Assembly: GCF_014400405.1 (NCBI RefSeq)
Contig: NZ_CP060496.1
Location: 3,038,001-3,102,000 of the forward strand
Length of the DNA stretch: 64,000 nt
Source of the DNA: Brachybacterium sp. Z12
Lineage (GTDB): Bacteria > Actinomycetota > Actinomycetes > Actinomycetales > Dermabacteraceae
Direction of reading: 5' to 3'
Below the pieces are notes generated by a model. It was not told the origin of the DNA. It did no database searches and saw only the letters and a list, made by a program, of their open reading frames with translations. The stretch's first letter is position 1. Each line of letters begins with the position of its first letter. Below are positions 4,756 through 64,000 of the stretch, piece after piece. Made by a program: the position numbers and the translations under genes.

Positions 4756-5914
4756 GAGGCCTCCTGCTGACGGCGCACGGCGGTGTAGGCGCGGTCCAGC
4801 ACCTCGTGCTCGGCAGTGGTGGGAGCGGCGCCGGTGACGTGGGCGAGGAACTCGTCCATGACTTCAAGCGGGTTCTGCTCACGACGCACCACGGGGTGCC
4901 CTCGCGGGCTTCACGCCCCTCGGGCGCATATTCGGTCACCAGCAGGTGCGGGTAGGCGTCGCGCAGCTGTTCCTGGAGGTGGGCGGGGCGTGCGGGGTCC
5001 GTGACGATGGCTTTCAGCCAGTCTCCGCCGTGCTCGTCGCGGCGGGCGAGGATCTGTTCGAGCGTGCCGCGCAGCTCGGTGAGGGGGCGTGGCACGGGGG
5101 TCTCGATCCGTCGGACCTCCGCTGGGGTCCCCGGGGCGCCGAGCTCGACCATGAGCACGGATTTGCGGTGGTTGCGCTCGGAGAAGGAGAACGCGAGCGG
5201 GGAGCCGGAGTACCAGGCCGGGGCGCCGATGGTGCGGGTGAGGTCCTGGCAGCCGTGGAGGTGGCCGAGGGCGAGGTAGTCGATGCCGCCGAGCACTCCG
5301 GCGGGGACGGAGTCGACGCCGCCGACGGAGAGGTCTCGTTCGGAGTCGCTGGCTTCGCCGCCGGTGACGAAGGTGTGGGCGAGCACGACGGTGCGGGCGC
5401 CGGAGTGGGTGGCGACGCGGTCGCGCACGCGGTCCAGGGCGGCGCGGGTGACGGCCTCGTGGCTGCGTGCCAAGGGTGGTTCCCCGTCGGCGACGAGCTC
5501 GGTGCGGGCGCGGTCGGGTTCAAGGTAGGGCAGGCCGAAGAAGAGCACCTCGCCGTGCTCATCGTTGACGGAGACGGGGTGGTCGATGCCGGGGACATCG
5601 GTGAGCAGGTGGATGCCGGGGCGCATGAACGAGCGACCGAATCCGAGTCGTTCCGGGGAGTCGTGGTTGCCGGAGGTGAGCACCACGGTGGCGCCGGTGC
5701 CGGCGAGGCGAGCCAGGGCGCTGTCGAGCAGCTTCACGCTGGTCACGGCGGGCACGGCTCGGTCGTAGACGTCTCCGGGGATGACGACGACGTCGACGCG
5801 CTCGGCCTCGACCAGCGCGACCAGCCAGTCGAGGAAGGCTTCCTGGTGCTCGTGCAGGTCGACCTTGTGCAGGGTGCGCCCGAGGTGCCAGTCCGAGGTG
5901 TGCAGGATCTTCAT
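4752..5914 (-). CDS. sbcD: Exonuclease subunit SbcD (Mre11-like nuclease)
   Basis: SbcD is the metallophosphoesterase subunit of SbcCD and acts with the downstream SbcC. It starts MKILHTSDWHLGRTLH. The metal-binding motifs are visible in order: DWHLG, GDVYDRAVP, SGNHDSPERLGFG, AHTFVTGGE and ALGHLHGCQDL. The full protein is about 387 residues. The frame breaks at the G4 run at 4893-4896; repair gives a C-terminal tail with VVRREQNPLEVMDEFLAHV that stops at 4752, overlapping the sbcC GTG. Without repair the reading runs far into sbcC in the wrong frame, so the long version should be disregarded. Confidence 0.95.
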
Positions 5915-6049
5915 GCCCCTGACTCTACGAGCGGGGGCCGACAGCCGGCGCGAGCGTGCACATCCTGCACGTCGCGGGCATGCCGATGCCCCGGCGCACG
6001 GGGGTGCGCGCCGGGTTCGGCGTGGGGTGGGAGGCGGGATCCTCCCCTG

Positions 6050-7734
6050 TCAGAAGGGTGGTGGTCCCTGACCGCCCCAGGGGTCGGGAGACGTCTCCTC
6101 ATCACCGGGGAAGGTCGCTGAGGGGGCGGTGCGGATGGTGGATGCAGGTCCGGTGGCGGTGGTGGTGGGGGTTCCGCTGTCCGGCCACCTGTGAGGGGCG
6201 GTGCTGTGCGGAACGGTTCCTCGCCTGCAGGGACGGGCGGTGTGGCGACGTTCCCGGCGTGGGTGCCTCGCAGGAAGCAGGTCCAGGCGAGGGTGAGGTC
6301 CTCGGCCATCTGGATGCTGGCGGTGTCGATCTCGTCGGTGACGGTGACAGCGTCGCCGTGGGAGCCGATGCGCCAGTGCGAGCGACCTGGTTCGGCGGCT
6401 CCGGTGGGGAGACGGGTGGGGTCCAGCAGGCCGTTGGTCTTGTCGAGGTGGTGCTGCCAGCACAGCAGGTGGAGGTTCTCGACCTCGGTGAGCGCGCCTG
6501 TGCCGGGGTGCCGCGCCGGCACTCCTCGATGTGGTCGCATTCGGAGGCCCAGGAGGTGGGCCGGGTGCAGCCGGGCACGGCGCACAGGCTGTTGCGCAGG
6601 CGGAGGTGCTCGAGCATCGACGCGGTGGGCACGTATCTGTCTGCGGGCAACGGGAGGAAGGCGCCGCTGGTGGGTTCGGTGAGGACCCGGTGCCAGACCT
6701 GGGCGCTGCCGGCGAGAGAGCGCGCCATCGACGGCGGCAACGGGGTGGTGCCGTCGAGGGTGCCGGGCTCGTCGGAGGCTCCGAGGAGGGTGAGGACGGG
6801 CACCGTGATGTTGAGACGGAAGCGCTCGGTGGGCACCTCCACGCCCTCGAGGTCGAGCTCAGCGAGGCTCATGAGCAGGTAGCGCAGCTGGGTCAGCGGC
6901 AATGCGCGCCCCGTGGCCAGCACGTCACCGTCCGGATCGTGCGGAATGGGTGTGCCCTCGCGCAGGGCGGTGCGCTGGGCAGTCTGGATCGCTCTGGCGG
7001 CTTCGTCGAGCGTCTTCCATCGCGAGAGGATCTCGGGGATGGGGCCGACGATCTGCAGGATCCCGGTACCCGGCTCGTGGCCGGGGAGCAGCCTGGCCGA
7101 TCGTTCGAGGCGTGAGCTCGGGTGGGGCTTCTCCTCACGGTGCTCGAGCAGGTCGATCAATGCACTCAGCAGCGTGAAGAACCGCTCGGCAGGGATATCC
7201 ATCGACCAGGCCTGGACAGCGATATCGAGATTCCTGCGCGAGGAATCGTTGAGGGGCGGGATGATTTCAGCATTTTCTGGAACCATGCCGACGGCATGGC
7301 CCCGGATTCGAGCATCTCGAGGGCTCGTGGGAAGAGGTGCACGGCCTGGTGGGCGTCCCGCAGCTGCCAGCTGGCGGCGTTCTTCGTGACCCTCAGCGCG
7401 AGCGCGGCACGGAGCGGATCGACGTCATCGAGCTCCGCCGCCTCCTCGTAGCTCCCGTCCAGCTCGTGCAGTGCTGCGAGGGCGCGGTACTGCGCAGCGA
7501 GAGCGGCGGCGGTCCGCTTCTCCGCGTCCCACACCCGCTGAGCGGCAGCGCTGAGCTGGGGGTCCCCGCGCTGTTGCTGCGCCTGGGCAGGGAGTCGCGC
7601 GTCATCTCCTCCCGTGCGCGGACCACTCGCAGGCGACGCGGGAGGGACTCGAGGAAGATCTCCGCGTCGCTGTGGTTCTCGCGCGGCGCCTCGTCATCGC
7701 CGAACAGCGCGCCACGCTTCTGCACCTCGCTCAT
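6050..7734 (-). CDS. DUF222/HNH endonuclease domain protein
   Basis: This is an actinobacterial DUF222-HNH (13E12-type) protein of about 562 residues after repair. It starts MSEVQKRGALFGDDEAP at 7734. The middle holds the DUF222 helical region (RAALALRVTKNAASWQLRDAH). The HNH nuclease follows, with LCAVPGCTRPTSWASECDHIEE then ENLHLLCWQHHLDKTNG, placing Cys/His metal ligands and the catalytic His. The tail ends GDEETSPDPWGGQGPPPF, usual for this family. Four one-base losses are inferred near 7560 (run of G), 7274 (T4), 6505 (G4) and 6190. That is many for one gene, so genuine decay cannot be excluded. The family is often multicopy; its role (mobile-element-like or defence) is unproven. Confidence 0.85.
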
Positions 7735-7866
7735 CGCATCCCACCCCTTGACTCTCCCGGTGTTCGAACGGTCCCTGATGCGGGCCCTGACCATCGGGCG
7801 ACCACTGCCATCCCGACCCCTACAGAGTATTGGCGGCACATTCGACGCGGAAGGCCGAGCCGGAAA

Positions 7867-8038
7867 TGTGGATACCCAGCGTGACTGCTATCCACATTCC
7901 ACACCATGACCCCCGAGAATGTGGACAACTTTCATTTCTCCTCCACAGCAATGGGTTGTCCACAACCTCCTGCGCAGAAGGCGTTCGAAGGACGTCCGAG
8001 GGCGGAGAAGCGGGGACCAGAAGGGGGCTTTGTCCACA
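7867..8038. promoter_or_regulatory. Cluster of five DnaA-box-like nonamers
   Basis: Between the HNH gene and the flavoprotein gene there are five close matches to the actinobacterial DnaA box. On the plus strand: CTATCCACA at 7888-7896, TTGTCCACA at 7956-7964 and TTGTCCACA at 8030-8038. On the minus strand: GTATCCACA (7875-7867) and TTGTCCACA (7928-7920). Three are identical to TTGTCCACA. The neighbours are not dnaA or dnaN, so this is unlikely to be oriC. DnaA titration or DnaA control of either flanking gene is possible. Confidence 0.6.
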
Positions 8039-8089
8039 GCGCGGCCCGACCCGGGTGACGTCGTGCCCGGAGCGGCGTAGCGTGCCGTC

Positions 8090-9601
8090 ATGGCCACCGA
8101 CGTCCCGTCCACGCCCGCCACCACCTCCGAAGTCACCGCCGACGTCGTCGTGCTCGGCGGGGGTCCTGTCGGGGAGAACCTCGCCCAGTACGCGATCGAG
8201 GGCACCGATCTCTCCGCCGTGATCATCGAGTCCGAGCTGCTCGGCGGCGAGTGCTCCTACTACGCGTGCATCCCCTCCAAGGTGCTGCTGCGACCACCGA
8301 CGATCGCCGACACCGCGGCCCATCTGCCAGGGCTCTCCACCCCGGTGCTCGAACGGGAGGAGCTGCTGGCGAGCCGGGATCAGTGGGTCTCGCACTACGA
8401 CGACGCCGGGCAGGTGGAATGGGCCGAGGGAGCCGGCATCCAGGTGCTTCGCGGTCACGGCCGGATCGTCGGTGAACGGGAAGTGCTGGTCACACCCGCT
8501 GAAGGACCGGACGGCGCCGCGGCCACAGGCGGCTCGACCCGCGTGCTCGCCCGCCGCGCGGTCGTCATCGCCACCGGTTCGAGCGCGACGATCCCCGAGG
8601 AGCTCGCGCCGCTCACCCCGTGGACCTCACGCGATGCGACCGGGGTACGGGAGATCCCTGACCGGCTGGCGATCGTCGGCGGTGGTGTGGTGGCCGTCGA
8701 AGCCGCGACCTGGATGGCGGCTCTCGGGAGCGAGGTCACCCTGCTGGTGCGCGGCGACGCACTGCTCAGCGGGTTCGAACCCTTCGCGGGGAAGCATGTT
8801 CTGGATGCTCTGCGTCACCGCGCGATCACCGTCGAGCTCGGCACCACGGTGCTCTCCGGGAAGCGCGAGGACTCCCGCGCGGCGGGTCTCGGCCGCCTCC
8901 ACGGCGGCCCCGTGACTCTGCGTGTCCAGGACGCGAGCGGCAGCCGGGAGATCGTGGTCGACGAGGTTCTGGCCGCGACCGGGCGTCGCCCGCGCCTCGA
9001 TGACGTCGGCCTCGAGGCGATCGGGCTCACCGCGGATGACATCACCGACGCCGAGCATCCTCCCGCCGACGACGGGGCCGGGACACCCTTGCCGTCGTGG
9101 CTGCACGCGGTGGGTGACGCGAGCGGGGAGGTGCCGCTGACGCACTGGGGCAAATATCGTGCCCGCGTGATCGGGCAGAGCATCCGCGCGGGTGCGACCG
9201 GTGAGGGGCTCGAACCGGTCCCCGAGAACGTGCCGGTCCCCCAGGTGGTGTTCACGGATCCGCAGGTCGCCTCCGTCGGCCTCACCGCCGCGGCGGCCCG
9301 CGATGCGGGACACGAGGTGGTCACCGCGCGTGTCCCCTACAGCGGGGCGGCGGGCACGGCGCTGCTGCGCGACGACGTCAACGGCACCGCGCAGCTGGTG
9401 ATCGATGCGCGCACGCAGCTGCTGGTGGGTGCGACATTCGTGGGCCCGGAGGCCTCGGAGCTGCTCCACGGGGCGACCATCGCGATCGTCGGCGCGGTGC
9501 CTGTGCACGTGCTGCGGCACGCGGTGCCGAGCTTCCCCACCGCCTCCGAGCTGTGGCTGCGCCTGCTTGAGGAGCTGCCGCCCGAGATGCGTCGCAGCTG
9601 A
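8090..9601 (+). CDS. FAD-dependent pyridine nucleotide-disulfide oxidoreductase
   Basis: This 503-residue protein is intact and belongs to the dihydrolipoamide dehydrogenase/mercuric reductase superfamily. It has an N-terminal FAD-binding motif VVVLGGGPVGENLAQYA, the redox disulfide region GGECSYYACIPSK (two Cys four residues apart) and an NAD(P)-binding motif AIVGGGVVAVEAATWMAALG. The second FAD contact is WLHAVGDASGEVPLTHWGKY, followed by a dimerisation domain. Near the C-terminus the sequence is HAVPSFPTASELW, where the usual catalytic His of the HPT-xSE motif is Phe. The Cys pair is therefore kept but the general base appears lost. The substrate is unknown; it is not adjacent to any 2-oxoacid dehydrogenase genes. 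A hairpin follows the stop. Confidence 0.85.
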   Translation: MATDVPSTPATTSEVTADVVVLGGGPVGENLAQYAIEGTDLSAVIIESELLGGECSYYACIPSKVLLRPPTIADTAAHLPGLSTPVLEREELLASRDQWVSHYDDAGQVEWAEGAGIQVLRGHGRIVGEREVLVTPAEGPDGAAATGGSTRVLARRAVVIATGSSATIPEELAPLTPWTSRDATGVREIPDRLAIVGGGVVAVEAATWMAALGSEVTLLVRGDALLSGFEPFAGKHVLDALRHRAITVELGTTVLSGKREDSRAAGLGRLHGGPVTLRVQDASGSREIVVDEVLAATGRRPRLDDVGLEAIGLTADDITDAEHPPADDGAGTPLPSWLHAVGDASGEVPLTHWGKYRARVIGQSIRAGATGEGLEPVPENVPVPQVVFTDPQVASVGLTAAAARDAGHEVVTARVPYSGAAGTALLRDDVNGTAQLVIDARTQLLVGATFVGPEASELLHGATIAIVGAVPVHVLRHAVPSFPTASELWLRLLEELPPEMRRS

Positions 9602-9616
9602 GCGACCGCGACGTTC

Positions 9617-9645
9617 GGGATCCGCGCCGCTCCGGCACGGATCCC
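9617..9645 (+). terminator. Hairpin after the flavoprotein gene
   Basis: GGGATCCG at 9617-9624 pairs with CGGATCCC at 9638-9645 across a 13-base loop, 16 bases after the stop codon. There is no T-tract, as is common for high-GC actinobacterial terminators. Confidence 0.5.
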
Positions 9646-9903
9646 TCGGCGCCTGACTACGTCCGACATCCGCAGTCCCCTCTATGGCACGGTCCGTCCG
9701 AGCGGGATAGATCGAGATCCCCCGCAGGTTCCGGGCCCGGCCGATCCCTGGGCCGTCGCTCGCTCCGGCAATTCGCGCTTCTCAGCCGCCGGGCTCCTCC
9801 CTTCGGAGGAGATGACAGATCGCACTGGTCAGAGAGCCGATGGATCGGGTGAAATGGGACCGTGCCGCAGAACTGCGGCGTCATGCCGTTCCCCGGGAGG
9901 ACC
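9646..9903. other. Non-coding spacer with two small inverted repeats
   Basis: No gene is seen in this stretch. It contains a tight hairpin, CTCCTCC at 9794-9800 and GGAGGAG at 9805-9811 around a CTTC tetraloop. It also has an inverted repeat, CCGCAG (9865-9870) and CTGCGG (9873-9878) separated by AA, 26 bases upstream of the next start. The second could be an operator; both are unproven. Confidence 0.4.
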
Positions 9904-54072: not shown

Positions 54073-54203
54073 CGCCGTCCTTCGGGGAGTCAGGGCTGCT
54101 GGCCCGTGCCACAGTACTGGGCAGCACGCACGCGGGCGACGTCGGGGCGCTCCTGATGCCATCTAAGATGAGCGCCAGCCCATTCCCATCTCGGAGGTCC
54201 GCT

Positions 54204-55764
54204 GTGCCCGTCCCGTTGTCCAAGAGCATTGCGTCTCTCCGCAAGGCCTTCTGGCATTTCCGGCAAGGTGGTGCCGCCCAGGTCAAGCTCTGGTGGAGCC
54301 GCGAGGACTCGACGAGGCTGGCCTCATTCCGCAAGGGCCTCTGGCATCTTCGCCATGGCGGCATCTCGGGGTTCCGCACCTGGCGAAGCCGTCAGGCCAC
54401 CCGGCGCGCACAGCCGTCGGGAGCGCACGGAGAGCGGTCGGGAGCGCACGCGAGCTCAGGATCTGCAGTCCGCAACTCCGACCTGGCACGTGAGGGCTTC
54501 CCCTTCCCCGAGATGCGGCCCGAGCCGGAGTACGCGCCGCGGCAGGATCACGTGCTGTACATGCTGCACAACGCCCTCCCCCACCACTCCGGTGGGTACG
54601 CGACCCGCACGCACGGTCTGCTCACCGAGCTGAACCGTGCTGGCTGGGATGTGGACGGCGTGACGCGCCTGGGCTACCCCTACGACATGCCGAAGATGGC
54701 GGATGTCCCCGATCTGCCGCACCACGAGCGCGTGGGCGAGGTCGACTACCACCACCTGCTCACGGGTCGCCAGATCGAGAAGAAGAACCCGATGTTCGAC
54801 TACACCGAGCGGTACACGGAGGCTCTCCTCCCGCTCGCCCGGGCGGAGCGCGCGGCGATCCTCCACGGGGCCTCGAACCACTGGAACGGTCTGGCCGCGG
54901 TGAAGGCCGGCCGCATCCTCGGGATCCCCTCGGTCTACGAGGTGCGTGGGCTGTGGGAGGTCACTCGAGCATCGCGCGATCCCGAATGGGGTCGCAGCGA
55001 TCAGTACAAGTACCTCGCACGGATGGAGGCGGACACCGCTCGCGGCGCCACCCGCGTGCTCGCCATCACCGAGGCGCTCAAGGCGGAGCTTGTGGACCGC
55101 GGCGTCGACGCCGACAAGATCACGCTCGTCCCCAACGGCGTGGACTCCGAGCGCTTCACCCCCATCCCCCGCGACGAAGAGCTCGCCGCTCAGCTCGGAG
55201 TCACCGGCAGGACGGTGATCGGCTATGTGGGCACCGTCGTGGACTACGAAGGCCTGGACCTGCTGCTCGAATCCGCCGCCGCCCTGAAGCGCACCCGCGA
55301 GGATTTCCACGTCCTGATCATCGGGGACGGCGCCAAGCTCGAGGAGCTGCAGGCCGCGGCGAAGGCTGACGAACTCGGGGATGTCATCACCTTCACCGGG
55401 CGGGTGCCGCATGAGGAGGTGGAGCGCTACTACTCGATCATCGACATCACGCCCTTCCCCCGCCTGCCGCTGCCGGTGTGCGAGATGGTCTCCCCCTGAA
55501 GCCCTTCGAGGCGATGGCGATGGGCAAGGCCGTGGTCGCCTCCGACGTCGCTGCGCTGGCGGAGATCGTCACCCCGGAGTGAATGGTCTGCTGCATGAGA
55601 AGGGCAGCGCCGAGTCGTTGACCGAACAGCTCACGACCTTGCTCGACCAGCAGGACCAGGTCCAGCTGCTCGGCAAGCAGGCCCGCCAGTGGGTCGTGGA
55701 GAACCGCGACTGGCGGCAGCTCTCGGCGCGGATCGCAGAGGTCTACTCCGAGGTGACCCGCTGA
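54204..55764 (+). CDS. GT4-type glycosyltransferase with N-terminal W/H-rich repeats
   Basis: This protein has about 520 residues; the GTG at 54204 has GGAGG six bases upstream and is preferred to an ATG at 54156. Residues 8-60 hold two copies of a basic motif (LRKAFWHFRQGG; FRKGLWHLRHGG). The GT-B domain follows: YMLHNALPHHSGGYATRTHG (Gly-rich acceptor loop), GIPSVYEVRGLWEVTRASRD, KITLVPNGVDSERFTPIP and VIGYVGTVVDYEGLDLLLES. The donor-site motif is PLPVCEMVSPLKPFEAMAMG then KAVVASDVAALAEIV (E-x7-E). Breaks are at C5 55492-55496 and C4 55572-55575. It is paralogous to the first GT module of the giant protein at 59.2 kb. Confidence 0.9.
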
Positions 55765-55798
55765 ATACTTCGATGCTCCTCCGACGGACGGCCAGCCG

Positions 55799-57512
55799 AT
55801 GACCCTTGATCTACTCGCGGCGACCCGCCAGGACTTCGTCACCTCGTTCCGCCCAGCAGATGTGAAGCAGCTGCTCACTGGGCGACTTCATATGTCACCT
55901 CATCCGGCGTGGGCCCTCCCAGAGGAGCCCACCTGGAAGGAGGACCCGTTCACAGACAGGAACTGGACCTTCCAGTACCACATGCTCCGCTGGTTGGAGC
56001 CGCTGCGTCGCGCCGCGGCGAAGGGTGACCAGCGGGCGTACGCGATGTGGTGGCGATGGACAAAGGACTGGGTGGAGAAGAACCCTCGGTCAGCACCCCA
56101 GTCTCCCTGGGCGTGGACTGATATGTCCGACGGGATCCGCGCACAGCAGCTCTGCCTCGCCGCTCCACTGATCGCGAGGCAGGACCCGCAGCAGCTGGAA
56201 TGGCTCGAAGCAGTGATCCGTGACCATGCCGAGCACCTCGCCGACCCGAAGTTCATGGGAAACGCGAACCATGCCCTGCACCAGCAGGAATCGCTCTTCG
56301 TCTGCGGCCGCGTGCTGGGGGACGAAGGCCTGTGGACGCTCGCCGCCGACCGCATGAGCGCTCTTCTGCACGAGCAGTATGACGAGCAGGGCGTCAATGC
56401 CGAGGGCGCTGTCGCTTATCACTACAACAACTACCTGTGGTGGGAGCGTGCGCTCAAGCGCTTCGATGCGGAGCGGATGCCCCGCCCAGATGGCGCGGAC
56501 CGTCACCTCCATGCCCCCGAGGAAATCGCCCACGCCACGCGACCCGACGGGACGCTGGTCTCCATCGGGGACACCGATCTTCAGAATCCGAAGATGGTCG
56601 AGAGCCCGTTCACGACATTCGTGACGTCCAATGGCAGATCGGGCACCGCCCCCAAGGACCTGGTGAAGGTCTACGACGCGGGCTATGTGTTCGGTCGCAG
56701 CGGCTGGGGCACTCGATCGCGGCCGTACGCCGACCAGACCTTCTACTCTCTTCGTTTCGGTCCGTCGCGCCGGGTGCACGGCCATCCCGACGGAACATCG
56801 CTCACCTATTCGGCGAGCGGTGTGAACTGGCTGGTAGATCCTGGGAAGTACCAGTACGACAAGAGTCCAGCGCGCGCCCATTTCACGTCGCGCGCTGCCC
56901 ATTCCGTGCTCACGATCGAGAACCGCAAGGTCTTCAGGAACGCCGATGTCCAGCTGGTGAGTCAGCTGACGACCTCCCGGATCCACGACTTCACCCTGGA
57001 GGACGACAGCTTCTCTGGCGTCGAGCTGCGCCGCCGGGTCATCTTCTCGATCACTGGCGAGTACCTCGTGGTCATCGACCATGTGGCATCGAAGCGGAAG
57101 GTGACCGGAAACCCAGCGTTGGCAGTTGGGGCCGGATGTCGAGGCCACGGTGGGAGACCACCAGGTCGGCCTCGCCTCGGGCGAGCGCCGTGGGGCCCTC
57201 TGGTTCGACCAGGCACCATTGGATCTGTCGACGGTCACCGCGCAGGACGAACCCTTTGACGGCTTCGTCTCGACCGGGTGGAAGAAGATGGCGCCGGCGA
57301 CGGCAGTTCTGGCTCGACGCTCCGGCACGGAGCTCCGTTTCGTCACCGTGCTCGCTGCGGGCCCCGGCGGCACTCCGACGGTCGATCCCGTGCCCTTCGG
57401 CCAGCCTGACTGGATCTGCTTGGACATCGATACCGGGAGGCTCCGTGAACGGATCCTGATCTCCCCGACCGCGGTGTCCCTCCCCACCATCCCGTCCACC
57501 ACGCGGCTGTAG
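55799..57512 (+). CDS. Heparinase II/III-like protein
   Basis: This protein of about 570 residues has an alpha/alpha-toroid N-terminal half and a beta-sandwich C-terminal half. Family features: YAMWWRWTKDWVEKNPRSAP, SPWAWTDMSDGIRAQQLCLA, MGNANHALHQQESLFVCGRV (Asn-His site), YDEQGVNAEGAVAYHYNNYL (catalytic Tyr region) and RVHGHPDGTSLTYSASGVNW with LVDPGKYQYD (His). There is no signal peptide, so it may act in the cytoplasm or be exported by another route. An extra base in the CCC at 57112-57114 shifts the frame; removing it reads KVTGNQRWQLGPDVEATVGD. It may cleave the uronate-containing polymer made by this locus. Confidence 0.88.
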
Positions 57513-57686: not shown

Positions 57687-58940
57687 ATGAGCCCGAACGC
57701 TCCCCTCGATACCGTCAGCGTCATCGGTCTCGGCTATATCGGTCTGCCGACGGCCGCAGTCCTCGCGCAGGCGGGCAAGACGGTCATCGGGGTCGACGTG
57801 AAGCAGGCGAACGTCGACGCGATCAATGCCGGCACCGTCCCCTTCGTTGAAGAAGGGCTCGAGACCGTCGTCGCGGGCGTCGTCGCCCAGGGCAAGCTCT
57901 CCGCGCAGTTGGAGACGCCGAAGGCTGATGCGTACATCGTCTCCGTACCCACCCCGTTCAAGGGCGACCATGACGCGGACCTCTCCTACATCGAGGCTGC
58001 CGCTCGCGGAATCGCTCCTCAGCTCTCCGGTGGTGAACTGGTAGTCCTCGAGTCCACCGCCCCTCCCGGAGCGACCGAGCACATGGCCCAGGTGATCCTG
58101 GATGCCCGGCCCGAGTTCACGCTCGAGCCGAACCTCCCCAACTCCCTCTACGTCTCGCACGCCCCGGAGCGGGTGCTTCCCGGCCGCATCATGATCGAGA
58201 TGGTGGAGAACGACCGCATCATCGGCGGCATGACGAAGGAAGCCGCGGAGATGAACCGCGAGCTCTACGCGAGCTTCTGCCGCGGCGAGCTGCTGCTCAC
58301 CGACGCGAAGACGGCGGAGATGGCGAAGCTGACCGAGAACGCCTTCCGTGACGTGAACATTGCCTTCGCGAACGAGCTGTCGATCATTGCGGACCGCCAG
58401 GGCATCGACGTCTGGGAGCTCATCGAGCTCGCCAACCACCACCCGCGCGTGAACATCCTCCAGCCCGGCCCGGGCGTGGGTGGACACTGCATCGCCGTGG
58501 ACCCGTGGTTCATCGTCTCTGCCGACCGTCAGTTCTCCAACCTGATCCGTACGGCCCGCGAGGTCAATGACTCCAAGCCTGAGCTCGTGATCGAGAAGGT
58601 GCTCGAGAAGGCTGACCGTTTCACGAACCCGACTGTCGCGGCCCTCGGCATCGCGTTCAAGGCCAACATCGACGATCTGCGCGAGTCCCCCAGCCGCAAC
58701 ATCGCCGGGGCCCTCGCCGAGAAGCTCACCGAAGGCACCGTGCTCGTCGTGGAACCCAACGTGGACGAGCTCCCTGCAGAGCTCGCGGCGAAGGACAACG
58801 TCGAGCTGACCGAGCTCAGCTCCGCCCTCGAGCGCGCTGACATCGTGCTGCTGATGGTGGATCACGCCCCCTTCAAGGAGGTCGACCGCGATCTCCTCCA
58901 GGAGAAGATCGTCATCGATACCAAGGGCCTGTGGCGCTGA
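57687..58940 (+). CDS. wecC: UDP-N-acetyl-D-mannosamine dehydrogenase (WecC-like nucleotide sugar dehydrogenase)
   Basis: This 417-residue intact enzyme oxidises UDP-ManNAc to UDP-ManNAcA with two NAD. The Rossmann motif is VSVIGLGYIGLPTAAVLAQA with GVDVKQANVDAINAG. STAPPGATEHMAQVIL and LYVSHAPERVLPGRIMIEMV are typical of the WecC/Ugd family. The substrate Lys is in MAKLTENAFRDVNIAFANEL and the catalytic Cys in GPGVGGHCIAVDPWFIV. The C-terminal domain includes TVAALGIAFKANIDDLRESP. WecC rather than Ugd is preferred for HCIAVDPWF and EMVENDRIIGG. It supplies an acidic sugar donor to the nearby glycosyltransferases. Confidence 0.92.
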   Translation: MSPNAPLDTVSVIGLGYIGLPTAAVLAQAGKTVIGVDVKQANVDAINAGTVPFVEEGLETVVAGVVAQGKLSAQLETPKADAYIVSVPTPFKGDHDADLSYIEAAARGIAPQLSGGELVVLESTAPPGATEHMAQVILDARPEFTLEPNLPNSLYVSHAPERVLPGRIMIEMVENDRIIGGMTKEAAEMNRELYASFCRGELLLTDAKTAEMAKLTENAFRDVNIAFANELSIIADRQGIDVWELIELANHHPRVNILQPGPGVGGHCIAVDPWFIVSADRQFSNLIRTAREVNDSKPELVIEKVLEKADRFTNPTVAALGIAFKANIDDLRESPSRNIAGALAEKLTEGTVLVVEPNVDELPAELAAKDNVELTELSSALERADIVLLMVDHAPFKEVDRDLLQEKIVIDTKGLWR

Positions 58941-59005: not shown

Positions 59006-59209
59006 AGGCGTGTCCCGCGGGCCTGCGCACGGCAGTCCCACGACTCTGGGCGCGACCTATAGCGCTCCTCCGGCGCGCTGTCTCCTGGGACAGTAGATTC
59101 AGACGCACCGCGTTCTGTTCACGAGACCTGAGTGCCCGGACGCCGTGCACTGCCATCGGCCTGTGACACCCACCCTCCCCCGCTCCCCTGGACTGAAACG
59201 GAACGAGTC

Positions 59210-62200
59210 ATGAACTACGACGAGACCCGCCCTGCCGATGAGATTCAGCTCCTCCGCGCCCAGGAAGCGATGTCCGATCCGGTCTCCTTCCTCCGGCGAT
59301 TCGAGGGGCTCGCCGCTCGTGACCGCCGTCAGAGGCAGCAGATCAAGACTCTGGAGACGCAGCTCAAGTCCGCTGCGAGGACAGCGGAGACTGCCACACA
59401 GCAGAAGGTGACGATCCGTCGGCTCGAGCAGAAGCTGCAGAAGCTCGAGCAGATGCACCGCACCAAGCGGGACGAGCTCCTGGAGCGCCTGACAGACGCG
59501 CAGGAACGGCACGTGGAGAGCGTGCGGGAGAGTCGACGGCTTCGTGAGGACCTCGAGCGGGTACGCGGGTCACGGACATTCCGTGTCGGCAAGGCCGTGC
59601 TGAGCCCCACCAAGATCTTCCGCGGATCCACAACGGCACCGAACGAGGGGCCCGTCACCGACCAGTCTCCGGAGCTTCCCCCGCGACGGCCGCAGGCGAC
59701 GCAGCGCCCCTGCAGTCCCCTGAGGAACTGACGCCAAAAAGGCCCCACAGCCTGTCGCCAGCAAGGCCGTTGACTCGGAGCTCACCACGGCGCCGGCAGC
59801 GATCGTCGCGCACGCCCCGCAGGCGACGTCTCCCTCGGTTCGCGCCGACGCCCCGGCAGCAGAGGAACCCGCGTGGGAGTCCCCGCTTCCGGTGGGACAG
59901 CGCGATCTGGAGACCTTGCGCCACGAGCTCGAGGTCCATCCGGACCCGGCGACCTTCTACCGGGTCCTGAACCGCAGCTGGTACGGGCACGGCATGATCG
60001 ATGAGCCCGCACAGCTGATACTCGACCACCCCGAGCTCGTCGATGCGCTCGCCGCCCGGGAGCGGTCGATCGCCGATCGCATCCTCGGCGATCACCGGCT
60101 CCGCCATGACGGCGTCCCGGTGCCGCCTCGCGCCGAGGGGATCGCCTACCTGCCCGAGCCCGAGCGGGTCATGTATTGCGTGCACTCCACTCCGGCGTTC
60201 AACTCCAACGGGTACTCGACGCGCACCCGCGGTGTCGCGAACGGATTCCATGATTCAGGCACCGACGTTCGCGTCGTCGCACGCGCCGGCTACCCGTGGG
60301 ATACCCGCGCCGATGTGCCCAAGCCCGCCGCGGTGCGCTCCGTGCGAACCCTCGATGAGGTGCCGTACGTGCATCTGCCCGGCACCGGTCTCGGCACCGT
60401 GCCCATGGACCGCTATCTCATCGAAGCTGCAGATGCCTTCACCAGGGAAGCACTGCTCCAGCGCCCGTCGGTGATCCAGGCCGCGTCGAACTACCGGACT
60501 GCGATGCCCGCTCTGATCGCGGCTCGACGGGTTGGCGTTCCCTTCGTCTACGAGATCCGCGGCTTCTGGGAGATGTCCCAGGCTGCGGACAAGCCCGCAT
60601 GGGACGGAAGCGAGCAGTACCGCACCATCGAGCAGCTCGAGACTCAGGTCGCGCAGGAGGCGGATCACGTTCTCGCGATCACCCGTCAGGTCAAGGACGA
60701 GCTCCTCCGGCGAGGGATCCCCGAGCACAAGATCACCGTCGCGCCCAACGCTGTGGACACGGACGAGTTCGTGCCGCTCCCCAAGGACGCCACCTACGCG
60801 AAGTCCCGGAAGATCCGCACAGACGTCCCGGTGATCGGCTTCGCCGGCAGCATGGTCGGATACGAGGGACTCGCCACGCTCATCGAGGCGTCCTCCACCC
60901 TCTCGAGCCAGGGTGTGGACCATCAGGTGGTCATCGCGGGCTCCGGCCCGGCGGACAAGGACCTCCGTGCCCTGCGCGCAGAACTCGGTGCGAAGGAGGT
61001 GATGTTCTTGGGTCGGCGTCCGATCGAGGAGATGCCGCGCCTGCTGAGCACCTTCGACATCGTGCCGCTGCCCCGCCTCTCCCTGCCGGTGACCGAGATG
61101 GTCTCGCCGCTGAAGCCCCTCGAAGCGTTCTCCACCATGAAGGCGGTGCTGCTCTCCGATGTGGCTCCGCATCGGGACCTCGCTGGGAAGACGGAGGGCC
61201 GGGCGCGTCTGTTCCGGGCCGGCGATGCGGAGTCCCTCTCCAAGGCTCTAGCGGAGCTGCTCACCAACGCGGACGCACGTCGCGACCTCGGACGGTCGGC
61301 CCGCCTCTGGGTCCTCGACGAGCGCACCTGGACCACCGTCGCCCGCACGATGAGCGCTGCTCACCGCTCGGCGGTCGCGGACTATGCGGCCTCGGTCGCG
61401 CCCATGAGCGTCGACCTCAGCGACGTCACGATCGGCCTCATTGCCGACGAGTTCACGACCAAGTCGATCTCCGCCTCGGTGAACACGGTCGCCATCGATC
61501 GCGAGCGCTGGCTCGCCCAGCTCGAGCAGGATCCGGTCGATCTCGTGCTGGTCGAATCCGCCTGGTCAGGGAACAACGGGCAGTGGCATCGTGCTGTGGG
61601 CGCGTACGAGCCCCATGAGCATCAGGACATCCAGGACCTGCTCGGCTACTGCCGGGAGAACGGGATCCCGACCGCCTTCTGGAACAAGGAGGATCCGATC
61701 CACTTCCAGCGGTTCGAAGCGACCGCTGCGCTGTGCGATCACGTGTTCACCACCGATGGCGGAATCATTGGCCGCTATCTCGCCACCCCCGGCTCGGTCG
61801 CACGCACCGTGTCCTCGATGCCGTTCTACGCGCAGCCCGCGATCCACAACCCGCTGCCCACCGAGCGCGCCTATCGCCACACGGTCGCCTACGCGGGGAC
61901 CTACTACGGTGACCGATACAAGGAACGCTCGCGGGATCTGTACCGCATGCTGGAGGTCGCAGCAGGGTTCGGACTCACGATCTATGACCGGCAGGCCGCC
62001 TTCCCGGACTCCCCGTACAAGTTCCCGCCGGAGTTCGCCCGCTTCAGCGACGGAGCACTGCCGTATGACGAGGTGATCGATTCCTACAAGTCTCACCTCG
62101 CTCATCTGAACGGCAACTCGGTGATGAACTCCCCGTCGATGTTCTCGCGCCGCGTGGTCGAGATCGCCGCCTGCGGCGGCATCGCACTGTCTGGCCCCGG

Positions 62201-63917
62201 CCGGGGAGTCGAGGAGACGTTCGGCGGGCTCATCCCCGCCTCGAAGGATGCCCTGTACTGGCGAGCCCTCCTCCACTCATGGTCCACGGACCCGGAGGCC
62301 CGGGTGCGCGAGGCCTGGCGCCAGATGCGTGCGGTGCACCGTTCGCACACGGTGCTGACCGCGATGACGCTGCTGCTGCGCACTGCGGGAGTACCGGTGC
62401 GGGCCCCTCGGCTCGACGACTACGCCGTGGTGCTCACCGCGAGCTCGGCCGATCTCGTCAACGGGGTCCTCACGCAGTCGTACCGGCCCCGTGAGGTGTT
62501 CGTTCCCGGTGGTTCGACCGAGACCACGCGCCGGCTTGAACTCGCCGGGATCACCGTCCGTGACTCCTCCGAGGCGGGCCAGGCCGATTCTCGCTGGATC
62601 GGGCTCATGGATGCTCCGCTCCCCCGCACCTGGTTCGAGGACCTGCTTCTGGCCACCCGCTTCGGGAGCTGGGACCGCATCGACGCGGAGAGGGCCGGTG
62701 CTGATTCAGTGGGTCGCACCCTGGCCGCGCCCGGTGCCTCGGAAGGCTCCTCCACAGGGCTCGTGGCCACGGTGATCTCGAACGGATCCCCCACGGTGGA
62801 GGACGCCCTGCGTACTCGCACCGAAGACGCCGTCACGCTCCTGGTGGCCGCGCCCCGCGCGGAAGAACTCTCTGCCCGCACCGCCGCAGACAGCCATGCT
62901 CTGGATGCTCCGCCAGCCGCGCCACAGACGATCATCGTGGCGGGTCACGACCTGAAGTTCGTGGGACCGCTGGTCGGCGCCCTCGAGTCCGCCGGGCACA
63001 CGGTGCTGATCGACCAGTGGGAGAGCCACACCCAGCATGACGAGGAACGCTCAATCGAGCTGCTGGCTCAGGCCGACACCGTCTTCTGCGAGTGGGGGCT
63101 CGGCAACGCGATCTGGTACTCGAAGCATGTGCGACCCCAGCAGCGGCTCGTCGTGCGGGTGCACTCCCAGGAGCTGTTCCGCCCCTATCTGAGCCGGGTC
63201 GACCACTCCCGCGTGGATCGCTATATCTTCGTGGGCGAGCTGATCCGCCGCGCCGCCGTGGAGGGGCACGGGGTCCCGGAGGCGAAGACGCAGCTGGTCC
63301 CGAACTTCGTGCGCACCGAGGATTTCGCTCTCGAGAAGCGAGAAGGCGCCGCCAAGACCATCGGGTTCGTCGGAATCGTCCCCCGCGCCAAACGCCTGGA
63401 CCTCGCGGTGGACGTGCTCGCCAAGCTTCTCGAGGTGGACCCGGAGTACCGCCTGGTCATCAAGGGACGCCGCCCGGAGGATTTCCCCTGGATGGTGAAC
63501 CGCCCGGACGAGATGGACTGGTACCGCGAGCAGTACTCCCGTATCGAGGAGATCAACGCCGCTCACCCGGGGGCAGTCACCTTCGACCCTCAGAGCGATG
63601 ACATGCCCGAGTGGTATCGAAAGATCGGGATCGCGCTCTCGGTCTCCGATTTCGAGTCGTTCCACCTGACCATCGCCGATGGCGCGGCCTCCGGGGCGCT
63701 TCCCGCATTGCTGGCCTGGGCAGGAAGCGACTTCCTGTACCCACGGGAATGGCTGAGCGCTACCGTCGACGGGACGGTCGCATCGATCCATGCGCGCCAG
63801 GAACTGGTGCGCACCGAGCATGAAGAGATCGAGAGGCGGTATGCCATGAGCACATCGATGCCCGCGCTCCTGAATGCTCTCGAGGCGGCGGACGTACAGA
63901 CCGGGCGCCCCTCATGA
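59210..63917 (+). CDS. Giant multi-module glycosyltransferase (coiled coil + GT4 + CgeB-like + GT-A-like + GT-B)
   Basis: Joined across two homopolymer breaks (C5 59688-59692, A5 59736-59740), this is one protein of about 1,569 residues. Residues 34-121: coiled coil (KTLETQLKSAARTAETATQQ). 150-230: Pro/Ala-rich linker. About 320-725: GT4 module (YCVHSTPAFNSNGYSTRTRG, GVPFVYEIRGFWEMSQAADK, PLPRLSLPVTEMVSPLKPLE). About 738-1061: CgeB-like module (VLVESAWSGNNGQWHRAVGA, VVEIAACGGIALSGPGRGVE). About 1069-1220: degenerate GT2-like part (GVLTQSYRPREVFVP). About 1241-1557: third GT-B module (TIGFVGIVPRAKRLDLAVDV, SDFESFHLTIADGAASGALP). No membrane segment. The stop overlaps the next ATG. If the breaks are real, it would be a 173-residue coiled-coil protein plus a 1,341-residue transferase. 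Confidence 0.85.
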
Positions 63918-64000
63918 ACAGCGCGGATCCCACGACCCCGGCACGGCGCTTCTCTCGCGAGATGGCCGAACAGCTCGCCTTCGGCGCGCCGTTCGCACCG
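63914..64000 (+). CDS. 5' end of the next polysaccharide-locus gene (partial)
   Basis: An ATG at 63914 overlaps the stop of the giant transferase (ATGA) and stays open to the window end: MNSADPTTPARRFSREMAEQ, then LAFGAPFAP. It is too short to classify. The coupling implies it belongs to the same locus. Confidence 0.65.
   Translation, partial: MNSADPTTPARRFSREMAEQLAFGAPFAP

Follow-up and report, generated by a model that had tools for sequence, protein, structure and literature searches.

The window analysed here, a stretch of 64,000 nucleotides from Brachybacterium sp. Z12 (contig NZ_CP060496.1, positions 3,038,001 to 3,102,000), holds at 59210–63917 a gene that we read as encoding a single-chain glycosyltransferase (GT) with several catalytic modules. 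In its intact form, the product would be one polypeptide of about 1,500–1,570 residues, in which an N-terminal coiled coil of ~90 residues and a disordered linker precede a GT4 module, a CgeB-like module, and a C-terminal GT-B module (GTB). The protein belongs to a conserved actinobacterial family and would most likely act as a coil-oligomerised cytoplasmic chain polymerase, its three modules adding sugars in turn to a teichuronic-acid-like wall or surface glycopolymer that contains N-acetylmannosaminuronic acid (ManNAcA) and is exported by an ATP-binding cassette (ABC) transporter. We place the probability of this reading, taken jointly over architecture, family, and function, at roughly 0.6.

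The fusion is observed directly in relatives. All 16 intact homologues examined carry GT4, CgeB, and GTB in one open reading frame (ORF), a recurrence that excludes chance, and in 14 of them, 1,466–1,546 residues long, a coil-like N-terminal region belongs to the same ORF. The exceptions are Corynebacterium lubricantis, where the coil is separate, and genome G054, which has no clear coil and whose ORF has a long start antisense to its own dehydrogenase gene. A first-pass annotation of the window had proposed a single polypeptide and pointed to related genomes for the same architecture, naming coils always encoded as separate genes as the finding that would tell against it. The homologues agree with the proposal on both counts, and coils that always stand apart were not what we found.

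As deposited, the window sequence contains two forward-strand ORFs in differing frames: a coil piece at 59210–59731 (173 residues; ATG at 59210, stop at 59729–59731, mechanical ORF start at 59132), which holds the coiled coil and the start of the linker, and the main ORF at 59892–63917 (1,341 residues), recognised from the ORF list and Pfam. Positional G+C favours the first frame clearly to ~59600 and weakly to ~59720; the signal for the second frame begins weakly at ~59750 and becomes clear at ~59870. Homopolymers of five bases occur at 59678 and 59736. Either a single frame change or a pair of them, at ~59650–59750, would fit both the positional G+C and the linker, and several lines of evidence make assembly indel error the best reading of them. 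First, the same-genus genome G010 encodes its homologue (L006:1483–6123, minus strand) in an unbroken ORF of 1,546 residues, with 75% identity to query positions 1–1330; the coil piece is 53% identical to residues 1–151 of that homologue, whose neighbour genes follow the same order as in the window genome. Second, ten G010 proteins match the window genome over most of their length, and five of the ten are frame-broken here: a GT4 gene (54162), a heparinase-like gene (55799), the fused protein, a further heparinase-like gene (63911), and a gene starting at 73564 (positions above 64000 carry the window numbering on past its end). Intact here are the gene for UDP-N-acetyl-D-mannosamine (UDP-ManNAc) dehydrogenase and four others (38463, 53032, 65740, and 67233). 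Third, the source genome (label G000), a single contig of 3.51 Mb, has a completeness of 85.7%, against 99–100% in 33 of 38 genomes of the genus. We read the breaks as assembly errors because neighbouring genes are also broken here and whole in the same-genus genome, in line with the earlier attribution to sequence errors.

The deposited pair of ORFs would also be expected if the window copy were a real pseudogene, or if Z12 kept two separate genes as C. lubricantis appears to do, with a coil ORF at 5568–5930 upstream of a transferase ORF at 5989–9891. We consider this very unlikely, given that half of the compared genes with intact G010 homologues are broken here, that completeness is low for the genus, and that the downstream 1,341 codons are open and conserved. 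Programmed frameshifting across the linker was considered and rejected, as 14 of the 16 homologues need none and unrelated neighbours are broken too. The C. lubricantis coil ORF itself (L035:5568–5930), of up to 120 residues and just upstream of the transferase ORF, may be a true split or a sequencing error. Other broken-gene findings within the window are likely to be assembly errors as well, given the frame-broken cluster genes at 54156–57512 and from 63911 onward.

Conservation was scored as invariant columns in an alignment of 17 sequences (the 16 homologues and the window protein), the G054 ORF having been shortened beforehand by its initial 470 residues, which run antisense to the UDP-ManNAc dehydrogenase gene of that genome. 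The GT4 module (60162–61391, forward strand, as are all window features below) matches PF00534 with 89.7 bits (cut-off 26.4) and PF13439 with 87.3 bits (cut-off 28.5), and 69 of its 410 columns (17%) are invariant. Its paired acidic residues near the nucleotide site, E402 and E411, are kept in all 17 proteins; the usual GT4 spacing of this pair is x7, and here it is x8 (E-x8-E). With the GT4-type model TIGR04063 of the XrtA system, the G010 homologue scores 235.5 bits, below the curated cut-off of 442. The CgeB-like module (61419–62390) matches PF13524 with 61.9 bits (cut-off 25) and has 72 of 324 invariant columns (22%). The C-terminal module (62922–63851) has 70 of 310 (23%), among them E1255 and D1263 (E-x7-D), again kept in 17/17. 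Searched alone, it narrowly passes PF13692 (28.3 bits, cut-off 27) and falls below the cut-offs of PF13439 and PF00534; its predicted model resembles BshA (Z 24.1, root-mean-square deviation 3.4 over 305 residues), TarM (Z 21.6), and PimA (Z 21.1). Sequence searches of the PDB gave no match up to E 1 for the CgeB module and two weak matches (E 0.02–0.03) for the C-terminal module; a profile built from four full-length proteins hit 12 PDB sequences, in every case across the GT4 module. The three complete GT-B modules described in the first-pass annotation are thus recovered, the GT4 and CgeB modules from Pfam and the third from PF13692 and its BshA-like fold.

The same annotation also described a degenerate GT2-like piece between the CgeB and C-terminal modules, and this part of the description is not supported. 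The piece (62415–62696) lies where standalone relatives hold a GT2 domain, keeps only 4 of 94 columns (4%), and is followed by a disordered linker (62697–62921) with 0 of 75 invariant columns and a predicted local distance difference test score (pLDDT) mostly below 50. Across 62415–62921 no Pfam family matches up to E 1, hence none to PF00535 (GT2), and hhalign against the profile of the standalone CgeB-GT2 proteins yields a probability of 0.4%, hence no match. In this region a DDD motif occurs in none of the 17 fused proteins; D-x-D occurs in five of them, at scattered positions, and not in the window protein. Only the position after CgeB and a low-confidence prediction of half a Rossmann fold at most hint at a GT2 origin. 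A fourth GT module was therefore rejected: with invariant columns making up 17%, 22%, and 23% of the GT4, CgeB, and C-terminal modules but 4% of this piece, the alignment indicates that three modules are under constraint, not four. The standalone CgeB-GT2 proteins of the same clusters share the CgeB module with the fused family (L036:2170–4089 and others; hhalign probability 100%) and differ in having a GT2 domain whose D502–D505 are invariant in all seven aligned. We infer that a CgeB-GT2 gene entered the fusion and that its GT2 part then decayed, while comparison of the piece itself shows no relation; 62415–62696 is probably a non-catalytic remnant or spacer.

Ahead of the modules, the heptad signal of the coil piece peaks at 59288–59557 and is reached by 9 of 500 shuffles, each N-terminal region having been compared with 500 shuffles scanned in the same way as the real sequence. 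The signal is reached by at most 21/500 shuffles in 14 of the 17 regions and by at most 13/500 in 12; the 14 include G054, counted by its heptad value though too short. In a predicted model of residues 1–703 of the Arthrobacter homologue, a single helix (residues 12–110) is followed by a disordered linker, by alpha-hairpins (residues 196–266), and then by the GT-B fold; the hairpins correspond in the window to a helical stretch ahead of GT4 (59949–60161), with 1 of 71 columns invariant. The coiled coil and linker foreseen ahead of the transferase modules thus find agreement in both heptad periodicity and model. The longest proline-free stretch measures 75 residues in G524 and 76–112 in the remaining 13 of the 14 fused members. 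Such a length, on a multi-GT chain beside ABC-exporter genes, would suit a molecular ruler of the kind found in WbdD and WbbB (see below), which sets chain length by spacing a terminator from the polymerase. None of the 14 fused homologues has a domain N-terminal of the coil-like region, so that no terminator lies in the same chain and a ruler would need a partner from another gene; we regard a ruler as decidedly unlikely and favour a coil that oligomerises the polymerase.

When named genomes were scanned, two relatives emerged, Arthrobacter sp. SX1312 (a single ORF of 1,521 residues) and C. lubricantis (1,300 residues, coil in a separate ORF). Searches of the order, class, and phylum used the C-terminal module as query on genome sets that overlap in part. 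In the order (396 genomes, E 1e-40 or better) 23 genomes matched, 14 of them, the window genome included, at 52% identity or more and with ORF lengths of 1,397–1,908 residues, and nine more weakly. In the class (394 genomes, E 1e-25) there were 47 matches, three of the fused kind (own genome included) and 44 at 34–43% identity, and in the phylum (296 genomes, E 1e-40) 14, comprising the window genome and 13 others at 37–44%. Within the genus, the fusion is present in two of 38 genomes and a separate CgeB-type match (E <1e-50) in 16.

Quick trees of each module, built without matches covering less than 70% of the module and after removal of identical rows (GTB 76 to 63, CgeB 35 to 34, GT4 55 kept), separate the 17 fused proteins from the rest by a single branch, with Shimodaira–Hasegawa-like approximate likelihood ratio (SH-aLRT) support of 100 for GT4, 99 for CgeB, and 64 for GTB. 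Because of this placement, the simplest reading of the trees is one fusion inherited as a unit, with the GTB support weak. More distant class members may show the unfused state. Six of them (L091–L094, L096, L097) carry the C-terminal module in an ORF of 734–926 residues, which in L092 holds two GT-B-type Pfam stretches, and in each an adjoining gene encodes a protein of 534–620 residues. In L092–L094 this neighbour begins with a segment that looks coil-like by eye (L092:3385–5196, L093:4079–5788, L094:4726–6327), and those of L092 and L094 have no Pfam match. These separate coil-like proteins are candidates for the same complex in unfused form. Compared by hhalign with the CgeB-GT2 family (probability 33%) and with the fused family (45%), they are only suggestive of a decayed CgeB domain.

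The proposed function draws on the genes that surround the fusion. Directly upstream lies the gene for a UDP-ManNAc dehydrogenase (57687–58940; NF008286, 564.4 bits, cut-off 459), which makes UDP-ManNAcA, and 24 kb beyond the window end are WecB (456.6 bits, cut-off 210.15), an ABC ATPase, and an ABC-2 permease. The locus therefore has, above cut-offs, a supply of uronic-acid sugar nucleotide, a trait of teichuronic acid synthesis. Across 17 loci (16 and the window's own, in stretches of 12–60 kb, the own stretch being 46 kb), the dehydrogenase is matched in 11, WecB in nine, the permease in 14 (two at ~30% identity only), and the ATPase in 12. Five of the 17 (Arthrobacter sp. SX1312, G131, G547, G559, and G746) share the one-strand order permease, ATPase, CgeB-GT2, UDP-ManNAc dehydrogenase, fused protein.

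The fused protein is a natural candidate for the polymerase because ABC-dependent pathways complete the chain inside the cell and need one. The protein would oligomerise through its coil, possibly at the membrane; its three modules, acting in turn, would add two or three repeat sugars to the growing chain; and the finished chain would leave through the ABC transporter of the same cluster. If all three modules are active, the repeat would comprise two or three sugars, ManNAcA among them. The polymer-assembling role suggested at first pass thus gains support from the UDP-ManNAcA genes and the ABC exporter of the cluster.

The cluster also contains other transferases, and this bears on whether the protein would be processive. 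The three modules might instead act once each, in sequence, to build an adaptor or oligosaccharide, with elongation left to the cluster's other transferases. A separate GT4 gene in the cluster, a separate CgeB-GT2 gene on the same strand in 5/17 loci, and the occurrence of GT4 and CgeB modules as separate genes in the genus mates examined are all compatible with such a role. The export genes point the other way: the flippase family PF01943 is absent from four of eight carriers searched and in the other four occurs only at a distance from the locus or on a different contig. The absence of PF01943 near the locus in these eight, together with nearby ABC-exporter genes, suggests that the whole chain is assembled inside the cell, where other transferases of the cluster could still polymerise it. 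We judge a non-processive builder unlikely, though worth keeping in view, and prefer the polymerase. Assembly by a Wzx/Wzy route is also unlikely, with no PF01943 near the locus in any of these eight of the 17 carriers; PF01943 was the sole family searched, and no Wzy family was included. GT4 and CgeB-type domains occur in protein-glycosylation systems as well, and the target could in principle be a protein, such as a surface-layer protein, in place of a wall polymer. The make-up of the cluster (an ABC exporter, genes for UDP-ManNAcA, and others of heparinase II/III type) makes this extremely unlikely.

Several observations weigh against a coil-assembled polymerase of a ManNAcA polymer. On the side of function, the exporter proteins score below curated cut-offs, the best models of the ATPase being teichoic-acid and galactan exporters; no tested neighbour gene is matched in the 20 kb covered for G620; and the dehydrogenase is missing from the stretches covered for C. 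lubricantis, G139, G524, G598, and G637. We know of no activity for any member of the fused family, the coil could be an anchor only, and the other GT genes of the cluster could do the polymerising. On the side of architecture, the heptad signal is weak in G598 (42/500), in the C. lubricantis coil (114/500), and in G524 (125/500), and G054 reaches 19/500 but has a longest proline-free stretch of only 38 residues. The predicted models are of low confidence: that of the Arthrobacter homologue has a mean pLDDT of 59 (alignment of three rows) and that of the last 830 residues a mean of 62 (five rows), with a low-confidence stretch at 386–497. The GTB branch support of 64 weakens the argument for a single fusion.

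Gram-negative ABC-dependent pathways already provide examples of single-chain polymerases with multiple GTs and coiled coils, as the parts of PMC11231755 covered here describe. Klebsiella WbdA has two or three GT modules, one per linkage, with three in O5, and in WbbB of Klebsiella pneumoniae O12 the polymerase, the terminator, and a coiled-coil ruler share one chain (PMC11231755). The fused family resembles WbbB and WbdA (O3/O5) in having several GT modules per chain and an ABC exporter, and resembles WbbB in carrying the coil in the same chain, whereas the coil of WbdA resides in its partner WbdD. It differs from both in that its coil lies at the extreme N-terminus with nothing beyond and no terminator in the chain, and in its composition (GT4, CgeB-like, and a second GT4-like GT-B), its Gram-positive hosts, and its UDP-ManNAcA genes. 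The likeness drawn here is one of architecture and exporter context, and neither chain is named among the best 50 fold matches listed for the C-terminal module, the only query used. By analogy, the fused family is likely, if unproven, to work as a variant of this known type.

Closer to actinobacteria, the teichuronic acid synthetase of Micrococcus luteus is an octamer with four subunits each of 52.5 and 54 kDa, and in the covered parts of PMC3005890 no genes are named for it. It shares with the fused family an actinobacterial host, a ManNAcA polymer, and cooperation, in its case between two transferase activities; it differs in having two subunits in place of one chain of 1,466–1,546 residues, as in 14/16 homologues (PMC3005890). 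The Streptomyces utr cluster likewise makes an actinobacterial wall polymer, with diacetamido-mannuronic acid, its own UDP-sugar dehydrogenase, and its own transferases; unlike the fused family, those transferases are separate, two of them resembling TarS and TarM, and no fused three-module protein appears in the covered parts of PMC13274773.

The first-pass annotation had put this forward as the best candidate for an undescribed system in the window, a description that goes too far. No description of the order coil, GT4, CgeB, GT-B was found in the literature searched, most subscription journals being beyond reach, while coil-bearing single-chain multi-GT polymerases as such are already known from the covered parts of PMC11231755. 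In its fullest form, the proposal would be an undescribed actinobacterial family in which a coil-assembled single chain of three transferases makes the whole ManNAcA wall polymer in the cytoplasm for ABC export, having been fused from separate GT4, CgeB, and GT-B genes with loss of the CgeB protein's GT2, and serving as a Gram-positive counterpart of WbdA and WbbB; we rate this somewhat below even odds. If true, the logic of a coil combined with multiple GTs would not be confined to Gram-negative O-antigens, and the fusion would reveal which separate proteins (a coil-bearing one and a two-GT-B one) form the same complex in distant actinobacteria. The gene-level polymerisation of actinobacterial teichuronic-type wall polymers is poorly known; with every module in a single protein, one purified enzyme would be enough to test polymerisation, the order of the sugars, and chain length, and the gene set that recurs around it gives a way to predict polymers of this sort from genome sequence.

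The remaining features of the cluster can be described briefly. The separate GT4 gene (54156–55764), identified by Pfam and by comparison with G010, is a paralogue of the GT4 module (~40% identity) and is frame-broken in the window. By the same means, a heparinase II/III-like protein was recognised at 55799–57512, frame-broken here and intact in G010. A second gene of this type, placed by comparison with G010, is represented in the window by its start only (63914–64000) and continues beyond the end. The two heparinase-like genes (55799–57512 and from 63914 onward) are ~38% identical in G010; one follows the separate GT4 gene and the other the fused gene, and a GT4–heparinase pair may have been duplicated.

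A WHxRxGGxxxx(R/K)xW-like motif, seen by eye, opens standalone proteins of both kinds, namely five of five GT4s with short extensions and five of five CgeB proteins (L007–L010, L013, L023, L024, L026–L028), and occurs twice at the N-terminus of the window's separate GT4 (54156–55499). It was not seen in the printed part of ten GT4s with long N-terminal extensions. The motif may form a helix that targets the protein to a membrane or a complex. An integrase-core (rve) transposase-type gene (L039:12189–13238) sits inside the downstream part of the polysaccharide cluster. Finally, a 612-residue protein (G000:3103740–3105572, L039) is encoded beside the cluster here, in G010, and in G726; its G010 orthologue is weakly asparagine synthase-like (28.8 bits, far below the cut-off of 267), and the protein might amidate the uronic acid.

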